Notes under the pieces: generated by a model
What the model was told of the DNA's origin: nothing
The model's database searches: none
The model's input: the letters and a program-made list of their open reading frames with translations, nothing else
Made by a program: the position numbers and the translations under genes
Assembly (NCBI RefSeq): GCF_014199535.1
Contig: NZ_JACHNV010000002.1
Span: 930,001-994,000 of the forward strand
Reading direction: 5' to 3'
Source: Hymenobacter latericoloratus
GTDB taxonomy: Bacteria; Bacteroidota; Bacteroidia; Cytophagales; Hymenobacteraceae
Length of the DNA: 64,000 nucleotides
Part shown: positions 8,551 through 56,007 of the stretch, piece by piece
Layout: the number at the start of each line of letters is the position of its first letter
Position numbering within the stretch: the first letter of the stretch is position 1

Positions 8551-8555
8551 ATATC

Positions 8556-8654
8556 AATTAAGAATTAACAATTAAGAATGAATAATTGCTCTCAACAGCG
8601 AGAGTAGCAGTTCCAATGCTCCATTTTTAATTGTTAATTCTTAATTCTTAATTG
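8556..8654. repeat. Inverted pair of 4 x 7-base micro-arrays between etfB and etfA
   Basis: Left array 8556-8583: AATTAAG, AATTAAC, AATTAAG, AATGAAT. Right array 8627-8654: TTAATTG, TTAATTC, TTAATTC, TTAATTG. Read on one strand the arms are complementary over most of their length, so the intergenic mRNA could form a long AU hairpin with about 43 bases between the arms. The right array ends 8 bases before the etfA start. Confidence 0.8.
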
Positions 8655-8662
8655 AAAAAATC

Positions 8663-9715: not shown

Positions 9716-9840
9716 GGCCGTATGCAGACGGATACGCGGGCATTGGTTTCTTTTGCATCCAGTTCCCTTGCCTTCCTAACCCATTCATGCGGTCAGGTGC
9801 TACCTCTCCCGATCGTAAGACCCTAAGTCCCTTAGTTCCT

Positions 9841-10464
9841 TTGAAAAAGATACCGCTCGAAATTCTGGGCCTCTCGTCCAGCCAGTCGCAGTCGGGCTCC
9901 TTTGCCCTGATTCTGGGCGAAAAGACCGGCAACCGGCGCTTACCAATCATCATTGGTATGTTTGAGGCGCAGAGTATCGCCATCCAGATAGAGAAAATCA
10001 GCCCGAACCGGCCGCTTACCCACGACCTGTTCAAGTCCTTCGCCGAGCAGATGCACGTAGCCGTGCTGGAAGTCCTGATTTCGGATCTGAAGGAAGGCGT
10101 GTTCTACTCCAAAATCGTGTGTTCGGATGGCGCCAGCACCTTCGAGCTCGACGCTCGTCCTTCTGATGCCATTGCCATCGGCCTGCGTTTTGGAGTGCCC
10201 ATCTTTACGGTGGAAAGCGTGCTGAGCGAAGCCGGTATCATTCTTTCGGACCTCGACGAAAACGCCGATGAGGACGATGACGATACCGATGATGACGAAG
10301 ACGAGGACAACGACCAGCCGACGCCCAAGCCGGCCGAGCCGCGCGAACCCAGCGGACAGGTTTCTCTGGATGAGCTGACCAAAATGCTGGCCCAGGCCCT
10401 CGAACGTGAAGACTACGAGAAGGCCGCCAAAATCCGCGACGAACTCAATAAGCGCAACGGGTAA
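9841..10464 (+). CDS. DUF151 bifunctional-nuclease-family protein with UVR motif
   Basis: 207 residues from the TTG at 9841 (KKIPLEILGLSSSQSQ follows, the usual family start). An in-frame ATG at 9787 would add 18 residues with no family match and is less likely. Domains: DUF151 fold to about residue 130 (ALILGEKTGNRRLPIIIG, DARPSDAIAIGLRF); a very acidic Asp/Glu linker about 145-165; a C-terminal UvrB/UvrC-like motif EREDYEKAAKIRDELNKR. Plant and mycobacterial relatives are reported to have nuclease activity; the role in Bacteroidetes is not established. Followed by its own terminator. Confidence 0.88.
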   Translation: MKKIPLEILGLSSSQSQSGSFALILGEKTGNRRLPIIIGMFEAQSIAIQIEKISPNRPLTHDLFKSFAEQMHVAVLEVLISDLKEGVFYSKIVCSDGASTFELDARPSDAIAIGLRFGVPIFTVESVLSEAGIILSDLDENADEDDDDTDDDEDEDNDQPTPKPAEPREPSGQVSLDELTKMLAQALEREDYEKAAKIRDELNKRNG

Positions 10465-11148: not shown

Positions 11149-11154
11149 AAAGCG

Positions 11155-11182
11155 AGTTGTCGGTTGCGAGTTGTCAGTTATC
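11155..11182. repeat. 4 x 7-base micro-array (AGTTGTC family)
   Basis: Units AGTTGTC, GGTTGCG, AGTTGTC, AGTTATC in exact 7-base register, starting 6 bases after the upstream stop codon. Same unit family as the arrays framing the 15417-15788 gene and the array at 32390-32417, but here with no inverted partner nearby and no associated gene. Confidence 0.75.
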
Positions 11183-11252
11183 AGAGGGGCGAAGCTATTA
11201 ATCCTGACCAGAGTGCTTCCCCAAAAGATACGACAAGCCTCTTACCAGCGGT

Positions 11253-14625: not shown

Positions 14626-15318
14626 ATGGACCTAAGCGGCAAGGTAGCCATTATCACAGGTGTCAGCAAAGGAATTGGGCTGGCTACGGCCGAGGCGCTG
14701 CTGGCGCGCGGAGCGGTGGTGGCAGGCTGGGGGCGCACCGCACCGCAAGGCCTGCAGCACGAGCGGTTTCAGTTTTTCGAGTGCGACATCCGCAACGAAA
14801 TTGCCGTGCAGGAAGCCTACATGAACACGCAGCGCGAGCTGGGCCAGGAAATCCATGTACTGGTCAATAATGCTGGTATTGGCAATTTTGGCCCCGTAGA
14901 TGGCTTTTCATCCGACGACTGGCACGCTATGTTTGACACGAACGTGCACGGCCTGTTCTATTGCACCAAAGCCGTGCTGCCCCAGATGAAAAAGCAGCGC
15001 GAGGGCCATGTTATTAACGTGGCTTCTCTGGCGGGCACGGCCGGCACGGCCAATCTGGCGGGGTACTGCGCTACCAAATATGCCGTCCGTGGCTTCTCCG
15101 ACGCCCTATTCAAGGAAGTGCGCCCCGATGGAGTACGGGTAACCTGCCTGATGCCGGGCTCGGTGGAAACCAACTTCAACGGGGCTACCCCCGGCCAGGA
15201 GCCCAACCCCCACAAGATGCAACCTCAGGACGTTGCCGCCGCCATTATCCATGCCCTGGAAGCTCCGCAAACCGTTATGATTTCGGAGCTGCAGATGCGG
15301 CCCACCCAACCTAAATGA
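14626..15318 (+). CDS. Short-chain dehydrogenase/reductase
   Basis: 230 residues from the ATG at 14626 (MDLSGKVAIITGVSKGIG). Glycine motif TGVSKGIG, NNAGIGNFG, catalytic Ser in NVASLAGTAG, YCATKYAVRGFSD with catalytic Tyr and Lys, then CLMPGSVETNF. Probably NADP-linked. A possible -7 box TAACTTGC lies at 14584-14591. Its start is only 10 bases from the divergent DUF2807 start. The stop codon directly abuts a 4 x 7-base micro-array. Confidence 0.9.
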   Translation: MDLSGKVAIITGVSKGIGLATAEALLARGAVVAGWGRTAPQGLQHERFQFFECDIRNEIAVQEAYMNTQRELGQEIHVLVNNAGIGNFGPVDGFSSDDWHAMFDTNVHGLFYCTKAVLPQMKKQREGHVINVASLAGTAGTANLAGYCATKYAVRGFSDALFKEVRPDGVRVTCLMPGSVETNFNGATPGQEPNPHKMQPQDVAAAIIHALEAPQTVMISELQMRPTQPK

Positions 15319-15833
15319 GTTGCCAGTTACCAGTTGTGAGTTGTCAGGAGCAGAGAGTGTATGGCTGTTGCGTTAAGAATCATTTGCCTTGAACCTGGGT
15401 TACTGACAACGCATAAATGAAGGATTATAAGCAACTCGGTGTTTGGCAGAAAGCCCGAGCGTTAGCGAATCTGGTTTATCAGCTCACGCGCGACTTTCCT
15501 CGGGAAGAAGTCTTTGGGTTAGCTAGCCAGATGCGGCGGTGTGCGGTTTCTGTTCCCTCTAACTTGGCAGAGGGATGTGGTCGTAACCATGCTCGTGATT
15601 CGCTGCAGTTGTTCTTCATAGCTCGCGGCTCCTTATATGAGTTGGAAACGCAGCTTTACATTTCTTTGGACCAACAATATCTTTCTCAGGCCGCCTTTGA
15701 TGATGCCGTAGCTCTGTTGGTGGAGTGCCGACGGATGCTCAGCGGATTCATTAATTACTTTCAAGAACTACCGCCGAGTACCCAGTAACCCTTGTCTCAA
15801 AAACCGGCAACTGAAAACTGGTAATTGGCAACT
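15318..15833. repeat. Inverted 4 x 7-base micro-arrays framing the four-helix-bundle gene
   Basis: Left array 15318-15345: AGTTGCC, AGTTACC, AGTTGTG, AGTTGTC. Right array 15806-15833, read on the minus strand: AGTTGCC, AATTACC, AGTTTTC, AGTTGCC. The arms match in 24 of 27 bases when aligned as an inverted repeat (15317-15343 against 15809-15835). The left one begins at the stop codon of the SDR gene and the right one ends 6 bases before the gldA start. Between them is only the 15417-15788 gene, so the framed piece looks like a discrete cassette. Confidence 0.8.
15417..15788 (+). CDS. Four-helix-bundle protein (23S rRNA intervening-sequence protein family)
   Basis: 123 residues. Matches the TIGR02436 four-helix-bundle family: opening KDYKQLGVWQKARALANLVY, then FPREEVFGLASQMRRCAVSVPSNLAEG-type core (here split by SVPSNLAEGCGRN) and LYELETQLYISLDQQYL. 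Relatives are found inside intervening sequences of 23S rRNA genes in spirochaetes and as the Avd accessory protein of diversity-generating retroelements; the fold forms a basic, ring-like pentamer that binds nucleic acid. Here it stands alone in a protein-coding region, framed by inverted micro-arrays. GC content is somewhat below that of its neighbours. Biological role unknown. Confidence 0.9.
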   Translation: MKDYKQLGVWQKARALANLVYQLTRDFPREEVFGLASQMRRCAVSVPSNLAEGCGRNHARDSLQLFFIARGSLYELETQLYISLDQQYLSQAAFDDAVALLVECRRMLSGFINYFQELPPSTQ

Positions 15834-15838
15834 CAACC

Positions 15839-24678: not shown

Positions 24679-24709
24679 TTTCACACCTTCACCATTTCAC
24701 CAACTCACC
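24679..24709 (-). repeat. Micro-array next to the hemL stop
   Basis: Read on the minus strand: GGTGAGTT, GGTGAAAT, GGTGAAG, GTGTGAAA (8, 8, 7, 8 bases). The unit is the same as in the 6511-6618 pair. It begins immediately after the hemL stop codon and has no obvious inverted partner. Confidence 0.65.
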
Positions 24710-26037
24710 TACAAGCCGTGGGCTTCCTGCATGGATTCGCGGCAGGCCGTGAGGTAGTGGTCCACCAGGTCGTCGGTGATGGCCGTGCTCACGAACAGGG
24801 CCTCGTACTGAGCCGGCGCCAGGTAGATGCCCCGGTGCAGCATGGCCCGGAAGTAGCGGCCAAAAGCTTCCGTATCAGAAGTTTTGGCTGACTCCAGATC
24901 GGTAACGGGTTGGCTGGTAAAGAACACGCTGAACATAGAGCCCACCTGATTTACGGTGTAGTTCAGGCCCAGTTCCTGGCAAATCTGGCGGGTGCCGTCG
25001 GCAATGCGGGTAGTAATGCGGTTGAGCTCGTCGTAGAGTTCGGGGTGCTCGTTGAGGTAGGAAAGCTGGGCGATGCCCGCGGCCGTGGCAATGGGGTTGC
25101 CCGAAAGCGTGCCCGCCTGGTACACCTTGCCGGCGGGGGCCACGTTGTCCATAATGTCCTGGCGGCCGCCGTACGCGCCCACCGGCATGCCACCCCCAAT
25201 GATTTTGCCGAGCGTCGTCAGGTCCGGGGTGATGCCGTAGAGCTCCTGGGCACCACCGCGTGCTAGCCGGAAGCCGGTCATCACCTCATCAAAAATCAGC
25301 ACGATGCCGTGGCGGGTGCACAACTCGCGCAGGCCCTGCAGGTAGCCCGGCTGGGGCGCTACCAGGCCCATGTTGCCCACCACCGGCTCCAGAATCAGGG
25401 CGGCTACTTGGCCTTCGTTGGCCGAAATAACCGCTTCCACGGCGGCCAGGTCGTTGTAGGGGACCGTGAGCGTATCCTGGGCCACGCCCTGGGTAACGCC
25501 CGGCGAATCGGGGGCGCCCAGGGTGAGGGCCCCGGAGCCGGCCGCAATCAGGAAGGAGTCGCCGTGGCCGTGGTAGCAGCCCTCGAACTTGATGATTTTG
25601 TCGCGGCCCGTGAAGCCCCGCGCCACCCGGATGGCCGACATCGTAGCCTCGGTGCCGGAGTTGACCAGGCGTACTTTCTCGATGCTGGGCACCATCTGCT
25701 TGATGAGCTCGGCCATTTCCACCTCGCGGCGCGTGGGGGCTCCAAATGAGAGGGAGCCCTGCACGGCTTGCTGCACGGCCTCCAGCACCAGCTCCGGGGC
25801 GTGGCCCAGAATCATGGGGCCCCAGGAGTTAATAAAATCAAGGTAGCGATTCCCGTCCACGTCGGTCAGCCAGGCGCCCTTGGCCGACTGCATGAACACG
25901 GGGTGGCCGCCCACGGCCCGGAACGCGCGCACCGGCGAGTTTACCCCGCCCGGAATGTGGTTTTTGGCGCGGGTAAACAGAGCATCACTCGTGCTTAGGT
26001 GCAACTCGGGGGTAGTAGTGAGGTTGGAAGATTCCAT
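24709..26037 (-). CDS. hemL: Glutamate-1-semialdehyde 2,1-aminomutase
   Basis: 442 residues from the ATG complementary to 26035-26037 (MESSNLTTTPELHLSTSDALF). PLP enzyme that makes 5-aminolevulinate for tetrapyrroles. NHIPGGVNSPVRAF and SWGPMILGHA are family hallmarks; Schiff-base Lys278 in TTLGKIIGGGMPVGAYGG; Asp in FDEVMTGFR; substrate loop AGTLSGNPIA. A longer frame to 26127 adds 30 unlikely residues. Supplies precursors for the siroheme used by sulfite reductase at 59.7 kb, though not in the same operon. Confidence 0.96.
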   Translation of the reverse strand: MESSNLTTTPELHLSTSDALFTRAKNHIPGGVNSPVRAFRAVGGHPVFMQSAKGAWLTDVDGNRYLDFINSWGPMILGHAPELVLEAVQQAVQGSLSFGAPTRREVEMAELIKQMVPSIEKVRLVNSGTEATMSAIRVARGFTGRDKIIKFEGCYHGHGDSFLIAAGSGALTLGAPDSPGVTQGVAQDTLTVPYNDLAAVEAVISANEGQVAALILEPVVGNMGLVAPQPGYLQGLRELCTRHGIVLIFDEVMTGFRLARGGAQELYGITPDLTTLGKIIGGGMPVGAYGGRQDIMDNVAPAGKVYQAGTLSGNPIATAAGIAQLSYLNEHPELYDELNRITTRIADGTRQICQELGLNYTVNQVGSMFSVFFTSQPVTDLESAKTSDTEAFGRYFRAMLHRGIYLAPAQYEALFVSTAITDDLVDHYLTACRESMQEAHGL

Positions 26038-30982: not shown

Positions 30983-32383
30983 ATGCCTTTTGCTGAACAT
31001 CCGCTCGAAGAAACCAACCCCCTGACGGCGCAGTTTAACTCGTTTAAGCGCGTCCAGACGCCCAGCACCGGCCGCACCCTGGCCCGCTGGCTGGGCGGGC
31101 TGTTCGTCCTGCTTTTCCTGGCCGGCTTCCTGCCCTGGACCCAGAACATCCGCTCTACCGGCCGCCTCACCACCCTGCGCCCCCAGGACCGCCCCCAAAC
31201 CGTGCCCAGCACCATTGCCGGCCGTATTCAGCAGTGGCGGGTGCGCGAGGGCCAGCAGGTGAAAAAGGGCGACACGCTGGTTGAAATTGCCGAAATCAAG
31301 GAAAAATACTTTGACCCCGAGCTGCTGCAGCGCACCCGCGAGCAGCTGGAAGCCAAAATTGCGGCCCTGGAGGAAAACCGGGGTAAAACCGCAGCCTTGG
31401 GCATTCAGCAGGAAGCCCTACGCCAAGGCTTGAGCGTAAGCCTCGACAAGGCCCGCAACAAAGTAGCCCAGACCCGGCTGAAGGTGAACTCCGACGAGGC
31501 TGAGCTGCGCGCCGCCAACAACGACTTCGACATTGCCCGCCAGCAGCTGCAGCGCCAGGAAGCGCTGTATCAGCAGGGCCTCAAGAGCCTCACCGAGCTG
31601 GAGCAGCGCCGCCTGAAGTTTCAGGAAAGCACCGCCAAGCGCCAGGCCGTGGAAAACAAGCTGGGCGCCTCCCGCCAGGAGCTGGTGAACGCCCAGCTGG
31701 AGCTCTCCTCGCTGCAGGCCGAGTACCAGGACAAGCTGGCCAAGTCGGAATCGGACCGCCGCTCGGCCGTGGCGTATCAGTTTGATTCCGAGGGGCAGAT
31801 TGCCAAACTGCGCAACGAGCTGGCCAACCTCAGCATCCGCTCGGGCTACTACCACATCACAGCCCCCCAGGATGGCTACGTGGTGCGGGCCCTGAAAGAA
31901 GGCCTGGGCGAAATTGTGAAGGAAGGGGAGGCCGTGGTGACGGTAATGCCCAACACCCCGGCCCTGGCCGCCGAGCTGTACGTGCAGCCCATGGACATTC
32001 CGCTGCTGAGCGTGGGCCGCAAGGTGCGCCTGCAGTTTGATGGCTGGCCTGCCCTGGTATTCAGCGGCTGGCCCGGCACCAGCTTCGGCACGTTCGGGGG
32101 CCGCGTGGCCGTCATCGATAACATTGACTCCCAGGGGCAGTACCGCATTCTGGTTACCCCCGACCCCGGGCTGGAGCCCTGGCCCAAACCCCTGCGGGTG
32201 GGCTCCGGGGTGTACGGCTGGGCTCTGCTGGACGATGTGCCCATCTGGTACGAGCTCTGGCGCCAGCTCAACGGCTTCCCGCCCAACTTCGTGGGGTTGC
32301 CCACTGATAGCGGTAAGGGCGGAAAAGAAGCCAAGAAAGCCGATAAAACTGCCGACAGCGGCGGAGAGGAGGAAGCCAAATGA
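30983..32383 (+). CDS. HlyD-family membrane fusion protein
   Basis: 466 residues. Cytoplasmic N-terminus, one membrane helix about 38-55 (WLGGLFVLLFLAGFLPW), lipoyl-like half IAGRIQQWRVREGQQVKKGDTLVEI, long coiled-coil hairpin about 110-270, second half ITAPQDGYVVRALKEGLGEIVKEGE, and a beta-barrel domain. The C-terminus is Lys/Glu-rich (GGKEAKKADKTADSGGEEEAK). Bridges the inner-membrane ABC protein to the TolC-like channel. Its stop codon is fused to the start of a 4 x 7-base micro-array and overlaps the next frame. Confidence 0.92.
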   Translation: MPFAEHPLEETNPLTAQFNSFKRVQTPSTGRTLARWLGGLFVLLFLAGFLPWTQNIRSTGRLTTLRPQDRPQTVPSTIAGRIQQWRVREGQQVKKGDTLVEIAEIKEKYFDPELLQRTREQLEAKIAALEENRGKTAALGIQQEALRQGLSVSLDKARNKVAQTRLKVNSDEAELRAANNDFDIARQQLQRQEALYQQGLKSLTELEQRRLKFQESTAKRQAVENKLGASRQELVNAQLELSSLQAEYQDKLAKSESDRRSAVAYQFDSEGQIAKLRNELANLSIRSGYYHITAPQDGYVVRALKEGLGEIVKEGEAVVTVMPNTPALAAELYVQPMDIPLLSVGRKVRLQFDGWPALVFSGWPGTSFGTFGGRVAVIDNIDSQGQYRILVTPDPGLEPWPKPLRVGSGVYGWALLDDVPIWYELWRQLNGFPPNFVGLPTDSGKGGKEAKKADKTADSGGEEEAK

Positions 32384-33954
32384 GTCAGGAGTCGTCAGTT
32401 ATCAGTTGCCAGTTGCCAGGAGGGCACTGCCCGCCGGCCTGGGCACTTGCCACGGCGCGGCCTGGACGCGGCCGGCTAGCGTGCCTCAGCCGGTTTCTGC
32501 GCACCGTGGGGGTAGGAGCACTACTGCTATTGTGGCTGAGCGCGTCGGGGCAGGCCCAGCCTAGGGCTGCGGCTGCCTCGGCCCCGGTCGATTCCGGGCA
32601 GGTGTTCACCCTCACCGACCTACTGAACTATGTGGCCCTGCGCCACCCGGTGGCCCGGCAGGCCGGGCTGCTGCCCGAGCGGGCCCTGCAGGAAGTGCGC
32701 TACGCCCGCGGCCTGTTCGACCCCGCTGCCACCAGCAAGTACTACGGCAAAACCTTCAAGGGCAAGGAGTATTTCCACGACTGGGACACCCAGCTCCGGA
32801 TTCCGGTGTGGTACGGGCTGGATGTGAAGGCCGGCTTCGAGCGGGGGGTGGGCGCTTACGTCAACCCCGAAAACTACACCTCCCCGGCCGGCCTGAGCTA
32901 CATCGGGCTGTCGGTGCCGCTGGCCCAGGGGCTGCTGATTGACGAGCGGCGGGCGGCCGTGCGCCAGGCCCAGGCCCTGCAGGGCCTGGCCGAAGCCGAA
33001 CGACGCGGCGCCCTGAACAAGCTGCTGCTGCAGGCGGCCAAAGACTACTGGGAGTGGAGCCTGAACTACCAGCGCCTGCAGCTGCTGGACCGCAATGCCG
33101 GGCTGGCCAGTGTGCGCTTTCAGGCCGTGCGGCAGCGGGTGCTGCTCGGCGACCTGGCGGCCATCGACTCGGTGGAGGCCCTCACGGAAGTGCAGAACCG
33201 CCAGGCTACGCTCAGCCAGGCGCGGGTGCAGTTTCGCAACGCTACCCTGCTGCTGAGCAACTACCTCTGGAATGAGCAGCAGCAGCCGCTTGACTTGCCC
33301 CCGGCCGCCGTGCCCCAGCCTTTGCCCGGTCCCACCGACTGGCGCACCCTGCCCCCCGACTCGGTGGCTGTTCTGGCTCAGCAGGCCCAGCAGATTCATC
33401 CGGATTTGCAGAAAAGCCGCGCCAAAATCAGCCAGCTGAGCGTGGAGCGTCGGCTGTTGTCCAACAAGCTCCTGCCCAAGCTGACCCTCGATTACAACCT
33501 GCTGCAGGCTGGGCAGCCCTTCAACCCGGAAAAGGCCGCCAGCCTGAGCGGTAGTTACCTCGAAAACAATTACAAGCTGGGCGTGAGCTTTGCTTACCCC
33601 TTGCTGCTCCGCCAGGAGCGGGCCAAGCTGCAGCTTAACCGCCTGAAAACGCGCGAGGCCGAGCTGGACCTGCAGCAAGATTCCCGCGAAGTGCAAACCA
33701 CCGTGCGCAGCGTGGCCAATGACTGGGAGGCCCTGCGCGAGCAGCTAAGCCTGCAGGAGCGGGTGGTGCGCAACGCGGAACTACTGCGCAACGGCGAGCA
33801 AATCCGGTTTGAAAACGGGGAAAGCTCCGTGTTCCTGATCAACTCCCGGGAAGCCAGTCTGGTGTCGGCGCGGGTAAAGCTGGCCGAGCTGCAATCCAAG
33901 TACGCCCAAACCCAGGCCACCCTGCGCTGGGCCGCCGGGGGCGTGCCGGAATAG
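32380..33954 (+). CDS. TolC-family outer-membrane protein, 5' end uncertain
   Basis: Up to 524 residues. Outer-membrane efflux repeats run from about residue 75 (DLLNYVALRHPVARQAGLL; AARQAQAL-type coiled coils; FENGESSVFLINSREASLV at the end). The ATG at 32380 overlaps the HlyD stop (ATGA), but the first 40 codons translate a micro-repeat and a Pro/Arg-rich run that no signal peptide should contain. A credible signal peptide is VGVGALLLLWLSASGQAQ, so a GTG at 32506 is a candidate true start. The 3' end is closed by a terminator. Outer channel of the TetR-led exporter. Confidence 0.85.
   Translation: MSQESSVISCQLPGGHCPPAWALATARPGRGRLACLSRFLRTVGVGALLLLWLSASGQAQPRAAAASAPVDSGQVFTLTDLLNYVALRHPVARQAGLLPERALQEVRYARGLFDPAATSKYYGKTFKGKEYFHDWDTQLRIPVWYGLDVKAGFERGVGAYVNPENYTSPAGLSYIGLSVPLAQGLLIDERRAAVRQAQALQGLAEAERRGALNKLLLQAAKDYWEWSLNYQRLQLLDRNAGLASVRFQAVRQRVLLGDLAAIDSVEALTEVQNRQATLSQARVQFRNATLLLSNYLWNEQQQPLDLPPAAVPQPLPGPTDWRTLPPDSVAVLAQQAQQIHPDLQKSRAKISQLSVERRLLSNKLLPKLTLDYNLLQAGQPFNPEKAASLSGSYLENNYKLGVSFAYPLLLRQERAKLQLNRLKTREAELDLQQDSREVQTTVRSVANDWEALREQLSLQERVVRNAELLRNGEQIRFENGESSVFLINSREASLVSARVKLAELQSKYAQTQATLRWAAGGVPE
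32390..32417. repeat. 4 x 7-base micro-array at the HlyD-TolC junction
   Basis: Units AGTCGTC, AGTTATC, AGTTGCC, AGTTGCC, beginning 7 bases after the HlyD stop codon and lying inside the nominal 5' end of the TolC frame. Same unit family as 11155-11182 and the 15.3/15.8 kb pair. Confidence 0.75.
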
Positions 33955-43097: not shown

Positions 43098-43129
43098 TTA
43101 CTCAACTACTCCGTTACTCAGCTACTCTC
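43098..43129. repeat. 4 x 8-base micro-array at the guaA stop
   Basis: Units TTACTCAA, CTACTCCG, TTACTCAG, CTACTCTC in exact 8-base register, ending on the guaA stop codon. Unit sequence is unrelated to the 7-base arrays, but copy number and position relative to a stop codon are the same. Confidence 0.7.
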
Positions 43130-45647: not shown

Positions 45648-45655
45648 TACCTTTG
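45648..45655 (+). promoter_or_regulatory. -7 box of the SRP RNA gene
   Basis: TACCTTTG, full match to TAnnTTTG, ending 6 bases before the RNA start, with TTTCTG about 20 bases further upstream as a possible -33 element. Confidence 0.65.
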
Positions 45656-45660
45656 CCCCG

Positions 45661-45755
45661 GCGAGTCAGAACGACCAGCTCCTGCTGAACTCCCCCAGGA
45701 CCGGAAGGTAGCAAGGGTAGGTGGTTGAGCGGTGCGATTTTGGCTCGCTTTTTTT
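45661..45755 (+). ncRNA. ffs: Signal recognition particle RNA (small 4.5S type)
   Basis: The apical hairpin carries the conserved SRP54/Ffh-binding core CAGGACCGGAAGGTAGCA (compare E. coli GGTCCGGAAGGAAGCAGC). The ends pair: GCGAGTCAGAA at 45661 with TTTTGGCTCGC ending at 45748, giving an 11-base terminal helix with G-U pairs, followed by seven T at 45749-45755 as terminator. Length about 88 bases, usual for Bacteroidetes. It binds Ffh to target membrane proteins. Confidence 0.88.
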
Positions 45756-46645: not shown

Positions 46646-46650
46646 TTTAT

Positions 46651-46731
46651 AATGTGTGAAATGTGGAGAATGTGAAGAGTGTGCCGGAAGGCCATTTCCA
46701 CATTTTTCACATTTTCACATTTCCCACATTA
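46651..46731. repeat. Inverted 4 x 9-base micro-array pair after fsa
   Basis: Left 46651-46683: AATGTG at 46651, 46660 and 46669, then AGTGTG at 46678, each 9 bases apart. Right 46698-46731, read on the minus strand: AATGTGGGA, AATGTGAA, AATGTGAAA, AATGTGG. A small GCC/GGC stem forms the apex. The hairpin starts 6 bases after the fsa stop and ends 6 bases before the next start. Confidence 0.8.
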
Positions 46732-46736
46732 TCACC

Positions 46737-46940
46737 ATGTACATCATCAAAGTAAAAGGCAAGGCCAAGATTCCGGACTACATCCAGCTGCGCGATGAGC
46801 ACTTCGTGCTGATTGCCTACTTCCGCGCCGACCGCCCCCTGAAGGATTTGCACCGCTACGGGCTGGAAGGCAAGGAAGACGAGCTGGCCACGGTAATTGC
46901 AGGGCTTGAGTTCGGCAAACTGCAAAAGCTGGACCTCTAG
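46737..46940 (+). CDS. Small conserved-looking cytoplasmic protein, unknown
   Basis: 67 residues from the ATG at 46737 (MYIIKVKGKAKIPDYIQLRD). A longer frame from 46656 only translates the micro-array and is rejected. Predominantly beta then helix, no signal peptide, and codon use like its neighbours. No family recognised. It may be cotranscribed with fsa. Confidence 0.65.
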   Translation: MYIIKVKGKAKIPDYIQLRDEHFVLIAYFRADRPLKDLHRYGLEGKEDELATVIAGLEFGKLQKLDL

Positions 46941-55912: not shown

Positions 55913-56007
55913 GTTTTTATACAGAGGCGCTGAGAGACAGGCTCACTGACGCGTCGGCAACCATCCGCAACTGCTGGAACGGTGCCAATTCCTGACCATA
56001 TAAAAAC
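55913..56007 (+). promoter_or_regulatory. SAM-I-type (S-box) riboswitch
   Basis: P1 is a perfect 9-base helix GTTTTTATA / TATAAAAAC closing the element. Within it: CAGAG, a kink-turn-like GCGCTGAGAGA...GGCTC...TGAC, then CGGCAACC and further on GGTGCCAATTCCTG. These last two are the most conserved S-box boxes, forming the SAM pocket. P4 seems very short, so a SAM-I/IV-like variant is possible. It lies about 360 bases before a permease gene on the same strand and should lower its expression when S-adenosylmethionine is plentiful. Confidence 0.85.

Follow-up and report, generated by a model that had tools for sequence, protein, structure and literature searches.

Dispersed arrays of heptamers are familiar from cyanobacteria, where they are known as STRRs. 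Arrays of this kind have been described with the words GGGAATC in Xanthomonas and GGGGA(C/T)T in Nostoc (PMC4692102), and with TAACTGA in Beggiatoaceae and others (PMC4679880). The first of these papers reports a preference for four units, inverted pairs of heptamer arrays in Xanthomonas and, generally, no association of the arrays with mobile elements (PMC4692102). A separate body of work concerns the intervening sequences of 23S rRNA, whose S23 ORF was proposed earlier to be needed for mobility (PMC4990558). Here we describe a locus at which a gene of the S23 protein family is framed by inverted arrays of a 7-base word, and we compare it with related loci in other genomes.

The locus lies in a stretch of 64,000 nucleotides from Hymenobacter latericoloratus (hereafter the window). 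Its gene (15417-15788, forward strand), recognised as an ORF with profile matches, encodes a four-helix-bundle protein of 123 aa that scores 119.4 bits against TIGR02436 (cut-off 24) and 123.2 bits against PF05635 (cut-off 33.8). The Avd model gives 33.4 bits, which is under its cut-off of 80; the family assignment of the initial annotation, to the 23S rRNA intervening-sequence protein and the DGR accessory protein Avd, stands for TIGR02436/PF05635 and falls short for Avd. In a profile search of the protein, PF05635 and bAvd were the sole models matched, and no catalytic domain was recognised in profile searches. The gene is the only coding content of an element situated in the interval from the end of an SDR gene (15318) to the start of gldA (15839). 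The left array (15316-15347, forward strand) is built of a word close to CAGTTGC with period 7 and, as had been noted before, starts at the SDR stop codon: it begins within the TGA at 15316-15318. The right array (15804-15835, reverse strand) is an inverted copy of the left one and ends 3 bp ahead of the gldA start codon. When the arms are compared in inverted orientation (15316-15343 against 15808-15835), 25 of 28 bases are equal, which bears out the framing by inverted arrays first described as matching in 24 of 27 bases; shuffling the dinucleotides of the flanks 300 times never gave a score as high as that of these arms. The best period is 7 on both sides of the gene, with a strong score in the left flank (11.5) and a weak one in the right flank (6.9).

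The same window contains several further arrays. The CAGTTGC word, which the initial annotation had seen recurring at 11155 and 32390 without the gene, indeed forms one-armed arrays there (11152-11184 and 32382-32419, both on the forward strand), each directly after a stop codon; the second has no inverted partner within 900 bp and is missing in two relatives, G056 and G054, which were aligned over 101 kb at 88.9% identity and over 87 kb at 86.5% identity, respectively. Two complete gene-free inverted elements were absent from the initial annotation. One, with AATTAAG arms (8551-8662), fills the spacer between etfB and etfA, where relatives hold other words; the other, with AATGTG.. arms (46646-46737), lies behind a transaldolase gene, and a different word occupies this place in G056. 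An inverted element with AGCTGTT-type arms (2015-2160) is missing or degenerate in G056 and G054, and a one-armed 8-base array of TTCACCA.. (24680-24712) has no counterpart at the aligned place in either. We also found a one-armed 8-base array of TACTCAGC (43099-43127) and a weak 8-base array (9811-9841; arm score 11.5, partner score 13.2). Long single-strand hairpins are predicted for two of the window elements, with z-scores of -8.7 and -7.2. An Rfam scan of the window additionally located a Bacteroidales small SRP RNA (45652-45754, 72.8 bits) and a SAM riboswitch (55914-56006, 71.1 bits).

The association of arrays with TIGR02436 genes is solid. In the window genome (G000) there are five PF05635 matches. 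Four of these loci lie within inverted arrays that use three words in all, an AATTAA-type word occurring at both L002 and L003; the fifth (L005) shows a clear 8-base array in a single flank. A PF05635 match (E ≤ 0.001) was present in 50 of the 61 genus genomes drawn, with 0-7 matches per genome, some of them broken or split. Two array tests were applied, one requiring a score of at least 15.5 for the left flank against the inverted right flank and the other a score of at least 10.5 for a period-7/8 array. Arrays proved to be enriched beside these genes, as 65 of 94 genus loci passed both tests compared with none of 296 control small ORFs (Fisher p about 1e-51), the controls coming from four genus genomes and 54 of them from the array-poor G032; the other 29 genus loci failed one or both tests. 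The 94 loci were assembled from sets of 5, 29 and 40 and a low-scoring batch of 20, the rest being best-scoring matches, and matches below the cut-off as well as most fragments were left out. The low-scoring batch was chosen because L004 and L005 suggested an 8-base class, an expectation that was recorded only afterwards; all 20 of its loci have inverted arms (scores 17.6-35.2), and in all except L229 period 8 is the best in at least one flank (19 of 20).

Among named loci, mainly from Bacteroidota, both tests were passed by 43 of the 79 that were usable out of 80 (L331, with a flank of 31 bp, was dropped). Eight usable records are titled as non-Bacteroidota groups, and five of these have clear arms (L298, Gracilibacteria; L307, Acidobacteriaceae; L318, Phycisphaerales; L328, Betaproteobacteria; L339, Planctomycetaceae), though such records are metagenome bins, to which contigs may have been wrongly assigned. 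The pattern is irregular in L319 (Desulfosarcina) and limited to the inverted match in L272 (Chlorobiota), and no arms were found in the flanks of L322 (Methanophagales). Just 9 of the 30 top-scoring phylum loci passed both tests. From 31 plasmid records 13 loci were taken (12 cyanobacterial and one from Gemmatirosa), of which eight passed, seven of them cyanobacterial; the words of the cyanobacterial plasmids include TAGGGAG, GGGAACA and GGTGACA, and the plasmid inserts include ones between nrdB and nrdA and between cas6 and cas4. The gene-bearing element between cas6 and cas4 was seen in plasmids of Pseudanabaena galeata and Anabaena sp. 90 (L347 and L356), and in the latter strain the gene after cas4 is annotated as type I-D cas1d.

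Two further ideas about the distribution of the gene were tried and rejected. Loci with weak arms or none might be rRNA inserts, and 12 such loci gave no Rfam match. Carriage by phages received no support from a tblastn search of the window protein against 50,697 phage records, which produced no match at E ≤ 0.01. A nucleotide search of the window gene in E. coli genomes also gave no match, which is weak evidence.

The words vary widely between elements and agree between the two arms of one element. At least one arm was above threshold in 82 of the 94 genus loci and both arms in 52; for these 52 the arm-to-arm k-mer cosine was 0.794 in inverted orientation versus 0.140 in direct orientation and 0.129 between loci. 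The more alike two proteins are, the more alike their words tend to be: in 2983 between-genome pairs with unlike flanks (pairs among the 265 with similar flanks were excluded) the Spearman coefficient was 0.176, a value unmatched by any of 999 permutations (p ≤ 0.001). This all-pairs correlation is weak because it is present only among fairly close proteins, the mean word cosine being 0.45 in 58 pairs at 60-80% protein identity versus about 0.10 under 40%. The words of solo arrays match the gene arms of their own genome above random sets of the same size in G000 (p 0.009, with three of the five genes having arms strong enough to enter) and in G009 (p 0.0015); in G003, one of the three genomes compared, they match no better than such sets (p 0.39). 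Solo arms of G000 and G003 fit the gene arms of G009 slightly better than those of their own genome (0.578 versus 0.545 and 0.524 versus 0.461, respectively).

Gene-free copies are far from rare. At an arm score of 11.5 we counted 17, 25 and 60 period-7/8 arms per 400 kb in G000, G003 and G009, of which 15, 22 and 60, respectively, lie outside the fetched gene-bearing elements; G032, with no PF05635 match, has one such arm per 400 kb, and it is not inverted. In a sample of 15 related genomes, seven had no match and a density of 0-2.5 inverted arms per 100 kb, and eight had 4-7 matches and a density of 4.8-22.5 (Spearman 0.86 between density and match count, Mann-Whitney p 6.5e-4, kinship being uncorrected), ten of the 15 genomes being sampled over 40 kb only and the match counts including gene fragments. 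Arrays do occur where PF05635 has no match: G056, G018 and G004 have one in the etf spacer, and G010, G042 and G056 have one inverted arm each. The gene-free elements examined measure 85-180 bp, with inspection reaching 160 bp past an arm. An inner stretch, GAGTTTGATGTTC, together with its variants, is common to gene-free and gene-bearing GGTGAAAT elements, and since this stretch is unique, the gene-free GGTGAAAT elements are taken to be relatives and not independent products of slippage. No target site duplication was obvious by eye in the gene-free elements examined. As regards the fixed terminal inverted repeats of classical IS elements and MITEs, the array elements do have inverted ends, but with a word that differs from element to element.

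Some larger arrangements were noticed as well. In the relative G296, opposite-strand pairs of matches to the L004-type arm GGGTAGGA stand about 220-440 bp apart in several places, with no PF05635 match in between. In the window genome some longer array-ended elements enclose a different long palindrome, rich in GC, which gives the impression of nested repeats (G000:C2:191273-191702, which is L114:11273-11702, and G000:C2:295995 onward, in L119).

The elements occupy a characteristic position with respect to genes. In 1.2 Mb from three genomes there are 43 paired elements, a few of them gene-bearing, and 31 are intergenic and 12 are not, while 11% of random windows are intergenic by the same ORF calls. 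The distance from element to flanking stop codon has a median of 1 bp, with 29 of the 31 within 30 bp (the others are at 220 and 881 bp), and the flanking genes are co-oriented in 19 of 28 cases. A second count, made with ATG-only ORFs and with neighbours more than 600 bp away dropped, so that the outliers at 220 and 881 bp were excluded by construction, placed 36 stop sides between -31 and +17 bp (median 1) and 30 start sides at a median of 9 with a tail to 384; in both distance counts, ORFs overlapping an arm by over 45 bp were disregarded. Because the arrays themselves contain stop codons, part of this closeness could be made by the arrays. At the sites 15316 and 32383, however, where G056 lacks the array, its upstream gene terminates at the same residue.

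Directly behind stop codons, the gene-free arrays turn over fast. In G056 and G054 the window arrays that were compared are absent, degenerate or replaced, and the etf spacer holds three different words in G000, G056 and G054. When this spacer was collected from G000 and 29 relatives (L125-L154), its inverted repeat beat the best of 20 shuffles in 26 of the 30 genomes, only marginally in some, including G056, G057 and G014; two of the 26 (G043 and G040) are REP-like palindromes, and at least seven word types can be told apart by eye among the 30 genomes. REP-like GC-rich palindromes were seen to fill stop-start junctions that are held by arrays in other species, upstream of gldA (L076-L104) and in L150 and L152.

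The gene itself also comes and goes. All 30 genomes compared keep the synteny of the SDR-gldA junction; of these, G000 and G009 alone have the gene there, and in G017 its place is taken by a gene-free inverted array. The closest relative among 120 genus genomes, G296, shares the whole window element at 94%, and seven others are without it. At the site of L002, where the gene is present in G054, four relatives have 119-123 bp in place of 445 bp, with 119 bp in G296 and 122 bp in G056; at that of L004, present in G268, three relatives have 93-97 bp in place of 541-558 bp, with 94 bp in G296 and 93 bp in G056, and the 546-bp insert of G310 is not alignable. The differences at L002 and L004 mean that the gene was gained or lost between species, with flanks that are 89-95% identical (G000 versus G296). 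Empty sites in close relatives were found at three places: SDR-gldA, L002 and L004. Of 166 protein pairs from different genomes with at least 70% identity, 152 share neighbours and 14, such as L033 and L058, do not, having no translated similarity in the 1150-bp flanks. Within genomes, two of 96 pairs of copies reach 60% identity or more, and the median best identity is 0.30 within a genome versus 0.79 to another genome. The gene thus looks mostly stationary, a resident partner with occasional relocation, and what multiplies seem to be the gene-free arrays. The mobile cassette suggested in the initial annotation is weakly supported, as relatives do have gene-less sites but most similar proteins share neighbours and close paralogues are few. 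The layout proposed along with it, an element with solo relatives comparable to REP/RAYT, fits, given gene-free arrays in the genome and gene copies that are rarely close relatives.

The AlphaFold model of the window protein consists of four helices (mean pLDDT 95.8). Its best PDB matches are 2GSC (XCC0516, five chains) and 2RLD (S23 family), both titled as hypothetical proteins of unknown function, and weaker matches include Avd (4DWL) and the DGR complexes 8UBE and 8UB7. Across 212 aligned proteins S45 is conserved in 212, E75 in 211, Q38 and N49 in 210 each and R41 in 205, with K in seven. The bundle protein is under purifying selection, with dN/dS of 0.03-0.23 in 11 of the 17 pairs tested, those with finite dS.

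Candidate enzymes were sought among the genus genomes. The reverse transcriptase profile PF00078 matches in 12 of the 61 (nine of the 50 with the gene and three of the 11 without it), with zero matches in the window genome and in the gene-rich G016, G035 and G038; reverse transcription is therefore unlikely, and as a natural context for this gene, as the initial annotation had it, it finds no support in these four genomes. Y1 transposase matches are commoner in gene-bearing genomes (39 of 50 versus 4 of 11, Fisher p 0.011), so the link between arrays and gene may owe something to general mobile load, although the array-rich G035 and G038 have arrays with no Y1 match; despite the overall enrichment, Y1/RAYT enzymes were for that reason rejected as a required mover.

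As an explanation we put forward, at what we judge to be about even chances, a two-part repeat system with a pairing like that of REPINs and RAYTs, in which a helical-bundle protein would replace the transposase; binding, strand and catalysis are the parts that we infer. The DNA part would be a hairpin element with a short array at either end, in which a single 7- or 8-base word is repeated head to tail, the two arrays being inverted with respect to each other. Many copies of the element would be gene-free, and a few per genome would hold a TIGR02436 gene between the arms. The protein part would be a resident bundle protein, usually with a single representative for each word family in a genome, that acts in trans on elements with the same word. 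An oligomer of this protein may bind its own word in a folded single strand, either DNA at the replication fork or a transcript, and such binding would promote spread and renewal of the elements at gene ends. Cutting and joining would fall to host enzymes or else to the bundle protein itself, through an activity so far unrecognised. The copying of elements at gene ends is suggested by analogy with RAYTs and REPINs (PMC3116915).

The strongest rival is a regulatory one, which we consider rather unlikely: the bundle protein would be an RNA-binding regulator and the hairpin arrays its binding sites at operon junctions and in the 3' ends of transcripts, in which case selection would maintain the arrays and ordinary recombination would copy them, with no movement by the protein. 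In its favour are the location of the elements, which follow stop codons immediately and have co-oriented neighbours in 19 of 28 cases, the purifying selection on the protein and the hairpin z-scores of -8.7 and -7.2; the coupling of word and protein fits binding, and in Beggiatoaceae heptamers located upstream of starts were interpreted as potential sites of translational control (PMC4679880). It is odd, however, that one and the same junction should hold different words or REP-like palindromes across species if these were the sites of one regulator, and a regulator has no need to be encoded inside such an element, as the gene is in most genus cases. A second rival, an autonomous transposable unit made of gene and arrays, with the arrays as terminal inverted repeats and the bundle protein as transposase, appears considerably less likely still. 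It would account for the alternation of gene-bearing and gene-free states at three sites and for the 14 of 166 pairs at 70% identity or more without similar flanks, but the other 152 share neighbours, paralogues within a genome are distant (two of 96 pairs at 60% or more) and no known catalytic domain was matched.

Slippage happens easily in short tandem units, and unit copy numbers vary here. Both points count for a reading in which replication slippage at gene ends creates the arrays and the gene is merely caught in some of the resulting palindromes. This reading is already disfavoured and in our judgement very improbable, given that none of the 296 other small ORFs has such arms on both tests, that the word follows protein similarity and that unique inner sequence is common to different elements. 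The least probable of the readings is that the bundle protein works together with a reverse transcriptase, as Avd does. The match of the modelled fold to Avd and to the complex with the DGR reverse transcriptase is consistent with it, and the distribution of PF00078 (nine of 50 gene-bearing versus three of 11 gene-less genomes, and none of G000, G016, G035 and G038) argues against it, so that it too is already disfavoured unless an unrecognised polymerase is involved.

If the two-part repeat system is the correct reading, two puzzles would meet in it, namely the role of the very common S23/four-helix-bundle proteins and the origin of dispersed 7-base arrays, and the coupling of word and protein makes the question directly testable. 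A match is present in 157 of the 198 genomes drawn from Bacteroidota, so any mechanism would shape operon junctions across the phylum and beyond. A broader proposal is possible, though on balance doubtful: TIGR02436/S23 proteins may represent a new class of mobile-element protein that recognises, spreads and rewrites short-word hairpin arrays at the ends of genes without a known transposase, integrase or reverse transcriptase. The intervening sequences of 23S rRNA, like the dispersed heptamer repeats of Xanthomonas, Beggiatoaceae and cyanobacteria, would then be footprints of this same system.

Among known systems REPINs and RAYTs share the most with these elements. As described in PMC3116915, their repeats are dispersed extragenic hairpin doublets, comparable to our 43 paired elements in 1.2 Mb; the cognate genes are distinct and single-copy with their own repeat nearby, comparable to the 65 of 94 flanked loci and to the two of 96 paralogue pairs at 60% identity or more; and co-evolution of repeat and protein was proposed, with a resident gene and multiplying repeats. 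They differ in that a tyrosine transposase stands in place of the four-helix bundle, for which no Y1 domain was matched; here, moreover, the ends are arrays of a 7- or 8-base word, and different words occur at the same site in close species. The intervening sequences of 23S rRNA have a protein of the same family, encoded by an ORF in a hairpin insert with terminal inverted repeats (PMC4990558). The window element, unlike these, lies between protein genes (SDR and gldA), and no rRNA family was matched in the window by Rfam. The dispersed heptamer arrays resemble ours in their 7-base words, in the shortness of the arrays and in a mostly intergenic location near ORF ends (PMC4692102, PMC4679880). 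No partner gene is reported with them in the main text of these two papers, in which the terms 'four helix', '23S' and 'intervening' are absent. Avd has a fold to which that predicted for the window protein is similar (4DWL, with the DGR complexes 8UBE and 8UB7 among the matches); the window protein is under the Avd cut-off, and PF00078 has no match in its genome. The Foldback transposons of Drosophila are like the array elements in having long inverted ends made of tandem repeats, and unlike them in being eukaryotic, with unrelated proteins and much longer units. Among open PMC papers we found none that joins heptamer arrays with S23 inserts. We rate the proposed system as new because each of the known repeat or mobile systems tested fails, or leaves unsettled, a defining feature; heptamer arrays and S23 inserts are each known separately, and the nearest working analogue is REPIN/RAYT.
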